Source: Mannheimia haemolytica (GTDB taxonomy: Bacteria > Pseudomonadota > Gammaproteobacteria > Enterobacterales > Pasteurellaceae). From it: DNA of 64,000 nucleotides. Within the stretch, counting starts at the first letter, position 1, and the number at the start of each line of letters is the position of its first letter. Position numbers and translations under genes: made by a program. Shown in pieces: positions 55,021 to 61,810 of the stretch. The stretch spans positions 1,674,001-1,738,000 of the forward strand of contig LR134495.1 in NCBI GenBank assembly GCA_900638155.1, read 5' to 3'. Under the pieces are notes generated by a model. It did no database searches, had not been told where the DNA came from, and was given only the letters and a program-made list of their open reading frames with translations.

Positions 55021-55215
55021 CTATTCATACTCTTCTAGCCAGATAGTTAAAATCGCTTCAAGAATATGTTCATTTGATGCTTCCGGATCATCATCGAAAT
55101 CTTCCATTTCGCAAATCCATTTATGCATATCTGTAAAACGAACCGTAGTTGGGTCTAAATCTGGATTCATATCATACAGATTTTCTGCAATCATTCGAGT
55201 ATCTGACCATTTCAT
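55021..55215 (-). CDS. iscX: Fe-S assembly protein IscX
   Basis: A 64-residue acidic protein that binds IscS and tunes cluster assembly. It shows [22 protein letters not shown] at the start and the C-terminal [10 protein letters not shown], matching E. coli IscX (YfhJ). It is the last gene of the isc operon, sharing one base with the fdx stop. A terminator follows directly. Confidence 0.95.
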
Positions 55216-55556
55216 TAGTGTGCTGCCTCATTTGCGTGATTTAAATTATATTTCGGAATTTCAACAACTAAGTCTTCGTCACCAACAATACATTGACAAC
55301 TTAAACGGCTGTCCATTTCCAAACCCCAAGCTTTATCCAGCATATCTTCTTCTTGATCTGAAGTATCATTTAAAGAATCAAAACCTTCACGAATCACCAC
55401 ATGGCAAGTGGTACAAGCACAAGAACAATCGCAAGCGTGGTGAATTTCAACACCTGCTTCGTGTGCAACTTCTAATAAATTATCGCCGGCTTTAGCTTCA
55501 ACAACCATACCTTCCGGACAGAACTCTTCGTGTGGAAGAAAAACAATTTTTGGCAT
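55215..55556 (-). CDS. fdx: ISC-system [2Fe-2S] ferredoxin
   Basis: Electron donor for Fe-S cluster assembly. The 113-residue adrenodoxin-type ferredoxin has its cluster cysteines in [15 protein letters not shown] and a later SCQC. It begins [17 protein letters not shown] as in E. coli Fdx. I chose the ATG at 55556 (AAGGAA about 8 bases upstream) over a frame 10 codons longer that lies inside the upstream gene. It is between the Imm51-like gene and iscX. Confidence 0.95.
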
Positions 55557-55572: not shown

Positions 55573-55938
55573 CTAATCCCATTCAATATTATCCAGATGT
55601 TCGCCGATGAAGTTTAAAATCTCTTCCTCATTCTCAACCAGATAAACAATAATATTCTTTAGTTCCCTTGCTTTCTCTTTACTTTTCTCGGAAAGCGGAT
55701 AGGTAACATAATAACATCCTACGTCCGGATCTTCTTCTAATAACTCTAATAGGCTTGGACGATAAATACTAAGATAAGACCGTAAAAATGCCGCCCAGTT
55801 ATAGCCATTCATATAAGCAACATTATATTCGGCGTTAATTCGCTCACCTAGCTCAAAAATGCGGTTGTCTTCTAAATCAAATTCCACCGCAACGGTTCTG
55901 AATTGTTCTGAAATCTCGGTTTTTACATAGTTAGACAT
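55573..55938 (-). CDS. Imm51-like protein inside the isc operon
   Basis: An acidic 121-residue protein with no signal peptide. The middle reads YMNGYNWAAFLRSYLSIYRP, then LLELLEEDPDVGCYYV and a helical region RELKNIIVYLVENEEEILNFI. By eye this matches the Imm51 immunity family (a NGYDW-type core, a '-DPEAGMF-' strand, then two helices). It lies 9 bases after hscA and 16 bases before fdx, a place where E. coli has no gene. No toxin gene is nearby. It may be an orphan or repurposed immunity protein; the family call is moderate. Confidence 0.65.
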   Translation of the reverse strand: MSNYVKTEISEQFRTVAVEFDLEDNRIFELGERINAEYNVAYMNGYNWAAFLRSYLSIYRPSLLELLEEDPDVGCYYVTYPLSEKSKEKARELKNIIVYLVENEEEILNFIGEHLDNIEWD

Positions 55939-55947
55939 ACTGCCTCC

Positions 55948-57801
55948 TTATGCTAAATCGTCCATTTTTTTACCGGCTAACGCTTTTTGAATTGATAAAT
56001 TCATACGGCGTGCTGCAAATTCTTGCGTAGCTAAATCCACCTCTTTGATACCTTGCTGAATTGCAAAGCGATCAGTACCTTCTTTTAATTCGATTAAACG
56101 GGCTAATTGTGCTTCAATCGCTTGGAACTCCTCCACACTCAACACTGCAGAGCCATCTTCTTTCAATGCCGTTACCACGCTGTCAATCACTCGGTCGGCT
56201 TCTACTCGCTGTTCAACTAACTGGCGGGCTTCCATATCTTCTTTGGCATTTGCCATTGAGGATTTAATCATCTGCGTAACTTCTTCATCGGTTAAGCCAT
56301 AAGACGGTTTGATTTGAATTGAAGCCTGCACTTTGGTCGATTTTTCCATTGCAGTCACGTTTAATAAACCGTCTGCATCAACTTGGTAAGTTACCCGAAC
56401 CTGTGCAACCCCTGCTGCCATTGCCGGAATGCCACGCAAAGTGATTTTACCGAGAGAGCGACAATCTTCGACTAATTCACGCTCACCTTGTAAAACGTGG
56501 ATTGTCATCGCCGTTTGACCGTCTTTACCGGTAGTAAACTCTTGAGCTCGAGCTACTGGGATAGTAGTGTTGCGTGGAATAATTTTCTCCACCAAACCAC
56601 CCATCGTTTCAATACCAAGCGAAAGCGGCACAACATCAAGCAACAACATATCGGAATCCGGTTTGTTTCCAACTAAAATATCCGCCTGCACTGCCGCACC
56701 AATGGCAACAACTTTATCCGGGTCGATAGAGGTTAATGGCGTTTTACCGAAAAACTCGCCGACTTGTTCACGCACAAACGGTACACGGGTCGAACCGCCT
56801 ACCATTACCACTTCTTGAACTTCTTCTGCTTCAACTCCGGCATCTTTCAATGCTCGGCGACAAGTCATCAATGAACGTTTTACAAGCGGTTGAATTAGCT
56901 CATTAAATTGCGAACGACTTACTACACCTATCCAATTTGCAAATTTCACCTCAAATTCGACCGCTTGCGAAAGAGCAATTTTTGCTTGAGTAGCTAAGGT
57001 TAATAACTCACGCTGTTCGCTTGCAGTTTGTGGCTGGTAATTTGCCTGTTTGGCAATCCATTCCGCTAATAGGTGGTCGAAATCATCGCCGCCAAGTGCG
57101 GTATCCCCTGCGGTTGCCAATACTTCAAACACACCTTTACGTAAACGCAAAATGGATAAGTCGAAAGTACCGCCACCTAAATCGTAAACGGCGATCACAC
57201 CTTCTTGTCCGCTGTCTAAGCCATAAGCAATCGCTGCTGCGGTTGGCTCATTTAATAATCGTAAAACGTTTAAACCTGCAAGACGTGCCGCATCTTTGGT
57301 ACTTTGGCGTTGTGCATCATCGAAATAGGCCGGCACGGTAATTACTACACCTGAAAGCTCTCCACCTAAACGCTTTTCAGCAAATTGTGTCAAGTGGCTT
57401 AGAATATCTGCCGAAACTTCAATCGGGCTTTTATTGCCTTGAGCAGTTTGAATTAAAGGTAAACCGTTTTCGCTCGCCACAAATTGATAAGGTAAATTTT
57501 GATAATGTTGCTGAACATCTGCCAAAGAACGCCCAATTAAACGTTTAGCTGAAATAACCGTATTTTTTGGGTCAAGAGCTGCTTTGGCAAACGCTTCAAC
57601 CCCAAGCGTTTTTTCTGCTTCTGCATAATGCACTACTGACGGCACTAATGCTCTTTCTTGTTCATCAAGTAATACTTGAGCCTGCCCGCTACGCACAGTC
57701 GCCACTAATGAATTGGTTGTCCCTAAATCAATCCCCACCGCTAATTTATGTTGATGCGGAGCAGCCGTTTGACCGGGTTCAGAAATTTGTAATAATGCCA
57801 T
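55948..57801 (-). CDS. hscA: Fe-S cluster chaperone HscA (Hsp70 family)
   Basis: Specialised Hsp70 that binds the LPPVK motif of IscU and drives cluster transfer, stimulated by HscB. The 617 residues contain the ATPase motifs [45 protein letters not shown] and [15 protein letters not shown], and the substrate domain after residue 385. Length equals E. coli HscA (616). A DUF2625 gene separates it from hscB and an Imm51-like gene from fdx; both sides are normally direct neighbours. Confidence 0.96.
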
Positions 57802-57850
57802 TTATTTATCTCTCTAAATCTATTCTTCTCTCCCAAAAGAGAGCCAACAC

Positions 57851-58483
57851 TTAAGCCACTGAGTATCCCATATTTTCAGGGGCAAATTCGCCTTGGTAGT
57901 GGCGTTCAATCGGTACAGCAATTTTACTCGTAAGCTCTAGCACTTGATGCCCTTGTAATTTCTCTACATCGGTTTGCCAGTTTTCCCAACGCAAATCCTG
58001 ATAAAAATGGTTTAAATCTCCGGCTAATGCCCAGCCTAGAAATTCTGAATAACCTAATTGGGTGGTTTCCCATTTTTTAGCTTTTGGATGATAATAATAA
58101 ACTTTGCCAAGATCTGAGCCGATTCCGCCGGCATTAATGGCAAAATAGCCACCGATTGCATCATCCGCTACCAGCAAGTGGCTTGGTTGTTCGCCAGATT
58201 GTTTAAAAGTTTTGCCGAAGTTCCAATCAAATAAGCCCCGAGGCAATTTTTCGTTGCCTGAACCTAAAATGCGTAGCCAGCCGTGGTCAATCAATACGCC
58301 ACCGGTTTCATACACCATCGCCCCTAGTGGTGAGCGGGTGGAAAGTTGCATCCCCACCAATGCACTACCGGCATCTTCGGGGTAACTCGCTAAAATTTCG
58401 TAATGATTTTTTGCTTGGGTAAACCAGTCTCTTAAAATTAACCAAGCCGATTGCTTATCTAATAATTGTTCTAAATTTTTCAT
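57851..58483 (-). CDS. DUF2625 (SUKH-like) protein inside the isc operon
   Basis: A 210-residue cytoplasmic protein with the DUF2625 pattern: STRSPLGAMVYETGGVLIDH, GWLRILGSG, LLVADDAIGGYFAINAGGIG, LGKVYYYHP and GYSEFLGWALAGDLNHFYQDL. The last half has the look of SMI1/KNR4 (SUKH) proteins, many of which are toxin-immunity proteins. I chose the ATG at 58483 (AAGGAA upstream, family start); the longer frame to 58528 is unsupported. It sits between hscB and hscA, which are adjacent in E. coli. The function is unknown. Confidence 0.82.
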   Translation of the reverse strand: MKNLEQLLDKQSAWLILRDWFTQAKNHYEILASYPEDAGSALVGMQLSTRSPLGAMVYETGGVLIDHGWLRILGSGNEKLPRGLFDWNFGKTFKQSGEQPSHLLVADDAIGGYFAINAGGIGSDLGKVYYYHPKAKKWETTQLGYSEFLGWALAGDLNHFYQDLRWENWQTDVEKLQGHQVLELTSKIAVPIERHYQGEFAPENMGYSVA

Positions 58484-58536
58484 TTGCAAAATTTCCTTAG
58501 AATTTGACCGCTTGCGAAAACCATACAAATGTAGGA

Positions 58537-59058
58537 TTAATAGTCAAAGAATTTTTCTTCTACTTTCTCAATCTGAATAATTAATTTTTTAAAGTAACGG
58601 AGCTTGTCGGTTAACGCATTGGCTTTTTGCCAGTCGGCTGCATTTAACGTTTGTTCAAGCTGTTCTAATACTGCTTTTTGTTCCGCTTTAATCTGTTTTA
58701 AAAAGACGGTCAGTTCGGTTTCGTCTTTACGATGCTCAATGGTTTCCAGTTTTTCGTGCCATTCGAGTTGCTGCATTAAGAAATCCACATCTCGCATACT
58801 TTTTTCTTCGAGATTTTTGGCTTCACCTGTATGGATTTCAATCATCGCTTCCGCCCGTAAAACCGGATCTTTAAGAATATTGAGAGCCTCATTGACATCA
58901 GCAGATTTCTGCACCGCTTCTAGCTGTTCAGCACTTGATTTGTGGGCAAAGTTATCTGGGTGAAGCTGTTTCTGTAAAGCAAGATAACGCTCAGAAAGCT
59001 GGGCGTTATCAAGTTGAAATTGGACAGGTAAATCAAATAAAGCAAAAGGGTTATTCAT
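58537..59058 (-). CDS. hscB: Fe-S cluster co-chaperone HscB
   Basis: J-domain protein that brings IscU to HscA. The 173-residue protein has FALFDLPVQFQLD at the N-terminus and the HPD tripeptide at residues 33-35 in QLHPDNFAHKS. The C-terminal three-helix domain binds IscU. It is 9 bases from iscA. Length matches E. coli HscB (171). hscA is separated from it by the DUF2625 gene. Confidence 0.95.
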   Translation of the reverse strand: MNNPFALFDLPVQFQLDNAQLSERYLALQKQLHPDNFAHKSSAEQLEAVQKSADVNEALNILKDPVLRAEAMIEIHTGEAKNLEEKSMRDVDFLMQQLEWHEKLETIEHRKDETELTVFLKQIKAEQKAVLEQLEQTLNAADWQKANALTDKLRYFKKLIIQIEKVEEKFFDY

Positions 59059-59067
59059 TACAGTTCC

Positions 59068-59391
59068 TTATACACTAAAACTTTCGCCACAACCGCATTC
59101 GTTTTTAACATTCGGGTTGGTATATTTAAAGCCTTCGTTTAAGCCTTCTTTCACAAAATCCAGCTGCGTGCCGTTTAAATAAGTGAGGCTTTTTTCATCG
59201 ACAATAACTTTTACGCCGTGTTGTTCGAAAACTTGATCGTCTTCATTTAATACATCAACAAATTCAAGCACATAGGCAAGCCCCGAACAACCGGAAGTTT
59301 TCACACCAAGCCTTAGCCCGATACCTTTACCTCTGTTTTCTAAGAATGTACGAACTCGGTTTGCGGCAGCTTCTGTTAAGGTAATGCTCAT
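59068..59391 (-). CDS. iscA: Iron-sulfur cluster assembly protein IscA
   Basis: A-type carrier that delivers Fe-S clusters to apoproteins. The 107 residues include the three ligand cysteines in [10 protein letters not shown] and ECGCGESF at the C-terminus. Size matches E. coli IscA. It lies 108 bases after iscU; that gap holds a large nested inverted repeat made with uptake sequences. hscB follows closely. Confidence 0.96.
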
Positions 59392-59434
59392 AGTTTTCCT
59401 TATGTGAATGGATTAAATCAAGATAGAAATAGCA

Positions 59435-59487
59435 AATGCAAGCGGTTAAATTTTGCAATTTTTTTGCAAAAATCGACCGCTTGCATT
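59435..59487. repeat. Nested inverted repeat with two uptake cores between iscU and iscA
   Basis: Arms AATGCAAGCGGT (59435-59446) and ACCGCTTGCATT (59476-59487) are a 12-base perfect inverted repeat. Inside lies a second one, TTTTGCA / TGCAAAA. On the iscU-iscA transcript it would form a long interrupted hairpin that could reduce readthrough or stabilise RNA ends. Confidence 0.75.
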
Positions 59488-59499
59488 GATTGTATCATA

Positions 59500-59883
59500 T
59501 TACTTAGCTTGTTTTTCTTTGTAGTCTGCAATTGCAGCTTTGATTGCATCTTCTGCTAAGATTGAACAGTGAACTTTTACCGGTGGTAATTCTAACTCTT
59601 CAGCGATATCACTGTTTTTAATCGCACCTGCTTCCTCTAATGATTTACCTTTTACCCATTCGGTAATGAGAGAACTTGATGCGATTGCAGAACCACAACC
59701 GTATGCTTTAAAGCGTGCATCTTCAATGATACCCTGATCGTTCACTTTAATTTGTAAACGTAAAATATCACCACAAGCTGGCGCACCTACCATACCAGTA
59801 CCAATATCTGATGCTTCTTTATCAAAAGTCCCTACGTTGCGTGGGTTTTCGTAATGATCAATTACTTTTTCGCTATATGCCAT
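59500..59883 (-). CDS. iscU: Fe-S cluster scaffold protein IscU
   Basis: Scaffold on which IscS sulfur and iron are assembled into clusters. The 127-residue protein has ligand cysteines Cys37 (APACGD), Cys63 (YGCGSA) and a third in VHCSIL, and Asp39. The HscA-binding LPPVK lies near residue 100. It is 120 bases after iscS, a gap holding two TGTAGGGGC palindromic elements. An AAGGAA-type ribosome site is present. Confidence 0.97.
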   Translation of the reverse strand: MAYSEKVIDHYENPRNVGTFDKEASDIGTGMVGAPACGDILRLQIKVNDQGIIEDARFKAYGCGSAIASSSLITEWVKGKSLEEAGAIKNSDIAEELELPPVKVHCSILAEDAIKAAIADYKEKQAK

Positions 59884-60003: not shown

Positions 60004-61224
60004 TTAGTGGTGATTCCATTCGATTTTAGACAAATCTACACCTTCTTTGAACATTTCCCAAAGAGGCGAAAGCTCACGCAATTTCACGATAGCTTTTTTC
60101 ACGATTTCAATAGTATGATCGATTTCTTCTTCAGTTGTCCAACGACCTAAAGTGAAACGGATTGAGCTGTGAGCTAATTCATCGTCACGACCGATTGCAC
60201 GTAACACATAAGATGGCTCTAAACTTGCAGAAGTACAAGCTGAACCTGATGATACTGCGATATCACGTAATGACATCATTAACGATTCGCCCTCAACAAA
60301 GTTAAAGCTGATGTTTAGGTTTGAACCGATACGTTTACCTTCTTCCATTGAACCATTTACATATACTTCTTCAATATCTTTGAAGCCGTTATATAAACGA
60401 TCACGTAACACGGTTAAACGAGCCATTTCGCTTGCCATTTCTTCTTTAGCAATACGATATGCTTCACCCATACCTACAATTTGGTGAACAGGTAATGTAC
60501 CCGAACGCATACCACGCTCGTGACCGCCACCGTGAATAATCGCTTCTAAACGTACACGTGGTTTACGGCAAACATATAAACCGCCGATCCCTTTTGGTCC
60601 GTATAATTTGTGGCTTGAGAAAGACATTAAATCAACATTTAACTCTTGTACATCAACCGGAATTTTACCTACAGACTGGGTTGCATCAACATGGAAAATG
60701 ATTTTCTTCGCACGGCAGATTGCACCGATTTCTTTGATCGGTTGAATTACGCCCATTTCGTTATTGACGTGCATTACCGAAATTAAAATCGTGTCCGGGC
60801 GGATAGCCGCTTCTAATTTAGCTAAATCTAAAATACCGTCTTCTTCAGGGTCTAAGTAAGTTACTTCAAAACCTTCACGCTCTAACTGGCGACAAGTATC
60901 TAATACTGCTTTATGTTCGGTTTTAACAGTGATAATGTGTTTACCTTTGGTTTGATAGAAATGCGCAGCACCTTTAATAGCTAAGTTATCAGACTCTGTC
61001 GCACCAGAAGTGAAAACGATTTCACGACTGTCTGCACCAATTAAATCGGCAATTTGGTTACGAGCCACATCAACGGCTTCTTCTGCTTCCCAACCAAATT
61101 TGTGTGAGCGAGAAGCAGGGTTACCAAAGATGCCGTCTTTGGTCATATATTCCATCATTTTTTTTGCAACACGCTCATCCATTGGCGTAGTTGCAGCATA
61201 GTCCAAATAAATTGGTAATTTCAT
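60004..61224 (-). CDS. iscS: Cysteine desulfurase IscS
   Basis: PLP enzyme that takes sulfur from cysteine for Fe-S clusters, tRNA thiolation and cofactors. The 406-residue protein starts [20 protein letters not shown], binds PLP through the Lys in [12 protein letters not shown], and has the mobile catalytic Cys in [14 protein letters not shown] near residue 330. The C-terminus ends [10 protein letters not shown] as in E. coli. It lies 53 bases after iscR with a good ribosome site. Confidence 0.97.
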
Positions 61225-61277: not shown

Positions 61278-61730
61278 TTAGTGATGATGCGGATGATCGT
61301 GACAATGCTCTTTTTCACAATCGTGATCAGCATGTTCCGCAGCTAAATCAGCAACTGAAATTGTCCCTAAAAACTGCTCAATTTGATCTTCTAATCGCTC
61401 CCACAAAGAATGCGTTAAACATTGAGAATCTTTACGACAATTACCACTGCCCTTACATCTAGTTACATCAATATTTTCATTAACTGCGTTAATAATCATT
61501 CCTACGCTAATATCTTCAGGTCTTTTACCTAGCTGATAACCACCACCCGGGCCTCGAACACTTTGCACAAGCCCATCACGGCGAAGTTGTGCAAAAAGCT
61601 GTTCCAAATAGGAAAGGGAAATAGCTTGGCGATCTGAAATATCGGCTAAACTCACCGGTTCTGATTTTCCATGTAAAGCAATATCTAAAATAGCTGTTAC
61701 AGCATAACGGCCTTTTGAGGTAAGTTTCAT
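61278..61730 (-). CDS. iscR: Fe-S cluster regulator IscR with His/Cys-rich tail
   Basis: Rrf2-family regulator that senses Fe-S status and represses its own operon. The 150-residue protein has the helix-turn-helix start [20 protein letters not shown]. The [2Fe-2S] ligands Cys92, Cys98, Cys104 and His107 lie at exactly the E. coli positions. The last 19 residues hold eight His and two Cys (about 132-150), suggesting an extra metal-binding segment. It is the first isc gene, and a type 1 IscR operator lies 56-80 bases upstream. Confidence 0.95.
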
Positions 61731-61785: not shown

Positions 61786-61810
61786 ATACCCCACTAATTT
61801 AGTCAATCAT
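61786..61810 (-). promoter_or_regulatory. IscR type 1 operator upstream of iscR
   Basis: On the minus strand: ATGATTGACTAAATTAGT then GGGGTAT. It matches the 25-base IscR type 1 consensus ATASYYGACTRWWWYAGTCRRSTAT at all but three positions. Its place 56-80 bases before the iscR ATG fits autorepression by [2Fe-2S]-IscR, as in E. coli. Confidence 0.85.

Follow-up and report, generated by a model that had tools for sequence, protein, structure and literature searches.

Imm51 (PF15595) is an immunity family of polymorphic toxin systems that is marked by a conserved tryptophan and a Dx[DE] signature and is listed alongside Tox-RES or Tox-URI1 as well as in polyimmunity loci (PMC3482391). The SUKH superfamily includes Tdi1 and Tdi2, which confer immunity to Ntox15 effectors. 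Orphan immunity-type genes, those that have no linked toxin, are described as arrays, either polyimmunity loci or the recombinase-associated rAID clusters (PMC3482391, PMC12247911). For DUF2625 (PF10946), whose copy in one plasmid record is called YbfG, a literature search turned up no paper, and among the matches of a search on Imm51 only one paper treated immunity proteins. Here we analyzed a 64,000-nucleotide stretch of Mannheimia haemolytica DNA (contig LR134495.1, positions 1,674,001 to 1,738,000; hereafter the window) in which a DUF2625 gene and an Imm51 gene lie within the isc iron-sulfur (Fe-S) operon. In contrast to the orphan arrays, these are single genes inside an essential operon and are vertically inherited; the Imm51 gene stands alone, with no linked toxin or polyimmunity locus. 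We propose, at a probability of roughly 0.45, that both encode orphan immunity-type binding proteins that have been made permanent in an essential operon and that may neutralize toxins.

Two genes within the isc operon of M. haemolytica

The operon is encoded on the minus strand. Its gene order is iscR-iscS-iscU-iscA-hscB-[DUF2625]-hscA-[Imm51]-fdx-iscX, and its features are as follows (window coordinates).

57851..58483, minus strand, DUF2625 protein of 210 residues with a predicted SUKH fold (PF10946, E = 2.1e-70; AlphaFold2 model with a mean confidence, pLDDT, of 90.5)
55573..55938, minus strand, Imm51 family protein of 121 residues (PF15595, E = 3.9e-17; AlphaFold2 model, pLDDT 96.6)
58537..59058, minus strand, hscB (Pfam HSCB_C, E = 3.6e-17; DnaJ, E = 2.6e-6)
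55948..57801, minus strand, hscA (open reading frame; name by eye)
55215..55556, minus strand, fdx, 2Fe-2S ferredoxin (Pfam Fer2, E = 8.7e-12)
55021..55215, minus strand, iscX (Pfam Fe-S_assembly, E = 3.3e-29)
59068..59391, minus strand, iscA (open reading frame and gene order; name by eye)
59500..59883, minus strand, iscU (open reading frame and gene order; name by eye)
60004..61224, minus strand, iscS (open reading frame and gene order, in order in relatives too; name by eye)
61278..61730, minus strand, iscR (open reading frame and gene order; name by eye)
61786..61810, IscR type-1-like operator upstream of iscR (pattern search, 3 mismatches to the consensus)

The DUF2625 gene starts with ATG and is separated from hscB by 53 bp and from hscA by 49 bp, and the Imm51 gene, which is preceded by AAGGAGG, lies 9 bp from hscA and 16 bp from fdx. 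A first-pass annotation made from the letters alone had given this arrangement exactly, in both coordinates and order. The placement is not due to chance, because it recurs in relatives. As that annotation had also stated, no toxin gene was seen beside either gene when the open reading frames of 51.9–64 kb were read by eye (the window as a whole was not searched for toxins).

Both family assignments, originally made by eye, were borne out by profile searches. The Imm51 protein scored 62.5 bits against a Pfam gathering cut-off of 29.8 and carries the family signature as an invariant Trp-48 and as Asp-70-Pro-Asp-72; among named records it comes closest to the protein of M. haemolytica DSM 10531, at 97% identity. 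The DUF2625 protein scored 236.5 bits against a cut-off of 27, covering profile positions 2–185 of 207, and also matched NCBIfam NF008495 (426 bits against 363). Although its sequence has no match to a SUKH family of Pfam at E ≤ 1, its AlphaFold2 model matches SUKH (SMI1/KNR4) proteins, the closest being the type VI immunity proteins Tdi1/Tdi2, and the predicted fold is SUKH, in line with the character first ascribed to it. In PMC3877243, HI0374 of Haemophilus influenzae is listed only as a predicted histidyl-tRNA synthetase. By number it falls between IscX (HI0371) and IscA (HI0376), a position from which it would be the DUF2625 gene.

The operator-like sequence at 61786–61810 is the sole match in the window to the E. 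coli consensus of the type-1 IscR motif, and 100 shuffles gave no match. Minus-strand terminator-like sites were absent from the junctions from hscB through iscX, with one weak match within fdx. The operator-like site ahead of iscR and the lack of terminator-like sites between hscB and iscX make co-transcription likely. Taken with spacing and strand, they indicate that the isc transcript, under the IscR control that had been supposed earlier, is probably the one from which DUF2625 and Imm51 are translated.

Distribution and origin in the Pasteurellaceae

DUF2625 was found in 79 of 140 Pasteurellaceae genomes, a sample that contains seven Mannheimia and one Bibersteinia. Of the 78 carriers with an hscA match, 77 have the gene immediately before hscA and in the same orientation. 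In the exception (G114; L180, L181) hscA is 36 kb from iscRSUA-hscB-DUF2625, and the operon is split at the DUF2625-hscA junction. One carrier (G094; L182) has no hscA match at threshold and an interrupted hscA in the usual position, and another (G129; L185) has an internal stop in DUF2625. The hscA of G041 (L226) is interrupted and shortened. Imm51 is present in eight of the 140, namely all seven Mannheimia and the Bibersteinia, and in all eight it sits between hscA and fdx. In a phylum-wide draw of 398 genomes, six carry DUF2625, five of them Pasteurellaceae.

Quick trees were made for HscA, DUF2625 and Imm51, and origins were counted as the fewest changes. On the HscA tree (138 rows, without G094, whose frame is interrupted, and G021, which has no hscA match, and with G041 entered in its shortened, interrupted form), the presence of DUF2625 needs one change (support 100), and that of Imm51 also needs one. 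The Pasteurellaceae proteins on the DUF2625 tree (46 rows, at most four per genus) fall on one side of a branch, opposite 13 outsiders. The two insertions are separate events, because DUF2625 is clade-wide and Imm51 is confined to two genera. Two genomes (G141 and G148) carry a GT8 gene and a DUF2625 of the type found in the Mannheimia half of the DUF2625 tree, while their hscA groups with their own genus, a pattern that points to exchange of the DUF2625-GT8 module.

Immunity or domestication

We suggest that DUF2625 was inserted at the hscB-hscA junction a single time, in an ancestor shared by a large Pasteurellaceae clade whose sampled members have all kept it, and that a single insertion between hscA and fdx brought in Imm51 in the common ancestor of Mannheimia and Bibersteinia. 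Each protein would be cytosolic and would bind and block some conserved partner. In all likelihood this would be a toxin domain that enters the cell often enough for purifying selection to hold the gene. The essential operon would provide steady expression, as the first-pass annotation had proposed, and would make disruption costly. The two proteins would not be Fe-S factors, since relatives use other operons in like manner. The observations beneath this proposal are the placement, the families, the SUKH fold prediction, the single origins on quick trees, purifying selection and the housekeeping neighbors seen elsewhere.

Both genes are under strong purifying selection. The median ratio of non-synonymous to synonymous change (dN/dS) over 21 pairs from the seven Mannheimia genomes was 0.055 for Imm51 and 0.048 for DUF2625, compared with 0.041 for hscA, 0.113 for hscB and 0.008–0.022 for iscS, iscU, iscA (19 usable pairs), fdx and iscX; dS exceeds 1 for hscA, hscB and DUF2625, which makes their ratios rough. 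A contact-dependent inhibition (CDI) locus 371 kb away in the same genome offers a comparison. It has TPS and PT-VENN matches and a NucA/NucB-like C terminus just below cut-off, and the gene after CdiA, SUKH-1-like but below its cut-off, is a candidate for the CDI immunity gene.

L323:287-14613, CDI locus with CdiB, a 2983-residue CdiA with the NucA/NucB-like end, the SUKH-1-like gene, and an orphan deaminase-type C terminus followed by a 122-residue open reading frame

Several results weigh against a role in immunity. The toxin end and immunity candidate of the CDI locus were unmatched in the fetched CDI stretches of four out of four relatives (two of the seven genomes have no TPS match, and a second TPS place of G001 was left out), whereas DUF2625 and Imm51 are present in all seven Mannheimia genomes; the isc genes are therefore unlike arms-race immunity genes. 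Their slow evolution and the fact that they are never lost count against the plainest form of an immunity role, and orphan SUKH immunity genes are described in PMC12247911 as accumulating non-synonymous changes. DUF2625 also departs from SUKH immunity proteins in having hscB and hscA as neighbors instead of a toxin and in being strongly conserved, not fast evolving. No toxin partner was found, and neutralization is a role that we infer; RES, one of the two toxins listed with Imm51, is found in none of the seven Mannheimia genomes (URI1 was not searched for). Across 61 nearer relatives, other phyla included, DUF2625 has 25 invariant columns, which fit a domesticated or ligand-binding protein as well. 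Finally, 60 of the 77 Imm51 loci surveyed elsewhere (see below) were not shown to be next to housekeeping genes; the neighbors of some are large proteins of surface type (L096, L158) or, in L151, a Roc-COR protein.

The main rival, which we rate below even odds and not far behind our own proposal, is that the two are domesticated, non-immune housekeeping proteins in which immunity-superfamily folds act as protein-binding regulators or chaperone-like adaptors that are not Fe-S specific. In yeast the SUKH protein Smi1/Knr4 serves such a cellular role, and Knr4 is among the Foldseek matches of the DUF2625 model. The single origin of DUF2625 with no sampled loss in its clade, the dN/dS of about 0.05 for both genes, near that of hscA, the invariant columns and the lack of toxin linkage all agree with domestication. 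It accords less well with the patchy occurrence of both families beyond these clades, as counted above for the phylum and the family, and with the best structural matches of DUF2625, which are toxin-bound immunity proteins. If the Imm51 and SUKH genes lodged in operons do confer immunity, they would be fixed, always-on defenses that toxin-linked or array-based searches miss; if they are domesticated, immunity folds would have been recruited to bacterial housekeeping, one of them beside hscA throughout a clade with animal and human pathogens. In both cases, two uncharacterized core-operon genes lend themselves to direct testing by deletion.

Relatives in other operons

The context of Imm51 was surveyed at 77 loci outside Mannheimia and Bibersteinia, taken from the best 80 of 171 (the other three being from these genera), with neighbors from mechanical picking of open reading frames, shadow frames included. 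The proteins, mostly from Bacillota and Bacteroidota, are 35–49% identical, and AxMNGxNW and a tryptophan near the end are kept in 65 of 65 aligned. Seventeen loci lie in or beside housekeeping genes: nine have the order pheS-Imm51-pheT (Oscillospiraceae or unplaced Bacillota; Imm51-pheT distance up to 456 bp, with another open reading frame between them in L117), two gpsA-Imm51-pgi (Prevotella, Dysgonomonas), and in the others Imm51 follows bipA (two) or carB (one, Gemella) or precedes ylmH (three). The remaining 60 are unclassified, although a few adjoin rsmH (MraW), ilvC or tsaD. On the Imm51 tree, in which deep forks are weak, the isc, pheST, gpsA-pgi, bipA and ylmH groups each occupy one side of a branch.

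The isc placement of DUF2625 was seen in Pasteurellaceae only, and in the eight places read outside the family the gene is alone or in other settings. Six of these are chromosomal, three among co-directional genes and three not clearly so, and include pyrC-DUF2625-xpt in Dysgonomonas, a position before a permease and xpt in Prevotella, and ald/mutL flanks in G221 (names by eye); the other two are plasmids. In the Imm51 survey, 36 neighboring open reading frames were read singly; eight had no family, and no toxin or immunity family appeared by name among the families listed. Of the 148 immediate neighbors below 2500 residues 131 were batch-scanned, and 25 of 169 matched families were listed, so an absence of toxins is not shown there.

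Because the host operon varies by lineage while the conserved protein core stays, an Fe-S role is less favored than a general function for which steady expression is an advantage, and neither family looks Fe-S specific. That the two proteins are Fe-S-specific accessory factors working with HscA/HscB or ferredoxin is accordingly improbable in our view, despite the near-constant position of DUF2625 upstream of hscA and an Imm51 dN relative to Bibersteinia (0.083) that equals those of fdx (0.081) and iscA (0.079). Relatives with the same conserved residues occur in non-Fe-S settings, hscA was matched in 60 of the 61 Pasteurellaceae genomes that lack DUF2625, 132 of the 140 do without Imm51, and G114 keeps DUF2625 far from its hscA. 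The domesticated Fe-S cofactors entertained in the first-pass annotation thus sit poorly with Imm51 relatives in pheS-pheT and gpsA-pgi and DUF2625 relatives in pyrC-xpt and ald-mutL. It had held that universal conservation with Fe-S co-evolution and no toxin link would speak against immunity; DUF2625 indeed lacks a toxin link and is fixed in its clade, but no sign of Fe-S specificity emerged. What stands of its interpretation is the families, the lack of a toxin among the neighboring genes read, likely co-transcription under IscR and the idea of operon-supplied expression.

The immunity-type proposal has a wider form. The relatives in other essential operons suggest protective or binding proteins that are kept on by borrowing such an operon. 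Besides pairing with a linked toxin and collection in immunity arrays, orphan immunity genes might conceivably be maintained by a third route, though we hold it as doubtful: in different phyla, single immunity-family genes would have lodged repeatedly in essential operons such as isc, pheST and gpsA-pgi, and being constantly co-expressed and shielded from loss would turn them into fixed, slowly evolving, innate-type defenses against a conserved toxin class.

An insertion slot between hscB and hscA

Gaps were measured in the isc loci of 139 genomes (all but G021), a wide gap being 300 bp or more. Wide gaps were found between hscB and DUF2625 in 22 of 79 genomes, between DUF2625 and hscA in 8 of 78, and on either side in 24 of 79. 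Among genomes without DUF2625, the hscB-hscA gap is wide in 1 of 59 (G076, with GT8); in G078 a GT8 gene precedes hscA at a contig end. Elsewhere in the operon wide gaps number 1 of 138 (iscS-iscU), 6 of 138 (iscU-iscA), 0 of 138 (iscA-hscB) and 8 of 137 (hscA-fdx, all Imm51). The cargo comprises GT8 glycosyltransferase, YdcZ exporter, DUF559, ParE with a RelB-like partner, acyltransferase 3, KilA-N, YhcG nuclease and a RhuM-like protein (name by eye). The longest open reading frame of at least 60 residues is on the operon strand in 29 of 31 wide gaps; of the other two, G099 has no such frame and G047 has only a 62-residue opposite frame beside a same-strand DUF559 relic. The hscB-DUF2625-hscA junction serves as a slot into which accessory genes insert singly and in the direction of the operon, and on the HscA tree cargo other than DUF2625 accounts for 16 changes, the GT8 gene alone for 8.

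This traffic is what would be expected if the junction were recombination-prone and both genes were merely older, neutral cargo in an unselected location, but we consider that the least probable explanation, given that DUF2625 and Imm51 show one change each while other cargo turns over and that both are under purifying selection.

Examples of cargo in Pasteurellaceae isc loci are as follows.

L169:5425-6231, cargo locus
L174:3110-3610, cargo locus
L225:2792-3847, cargo locus
L177:4438-6994, cargo locus

In four genomes the iscU-iscA junction holds members of a family of hydrophobic proteins of ~150 residues, two of these genomes having tandem copies (L270:2999-3451, L276:3450-3917, L282:5215-6129, L245:1924-2862); one copy was checked against NCBIfam and gave no match. 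G008 has a 138-residue open reading frame between DUF2625 and hscA (L178:4459-4875) with no Pfam or NCBIfam match, possibly another immunity-type gene. In the window itself, the iscU-iscA gap (59392–59499) and the hscB-DUF2625 gap (58484–58536) contain, by eye, copies that resemble the Pasteurellaceae DNA uptake sequence, whose core is AAGCGGT, and these might favor exchange at the two junctions.
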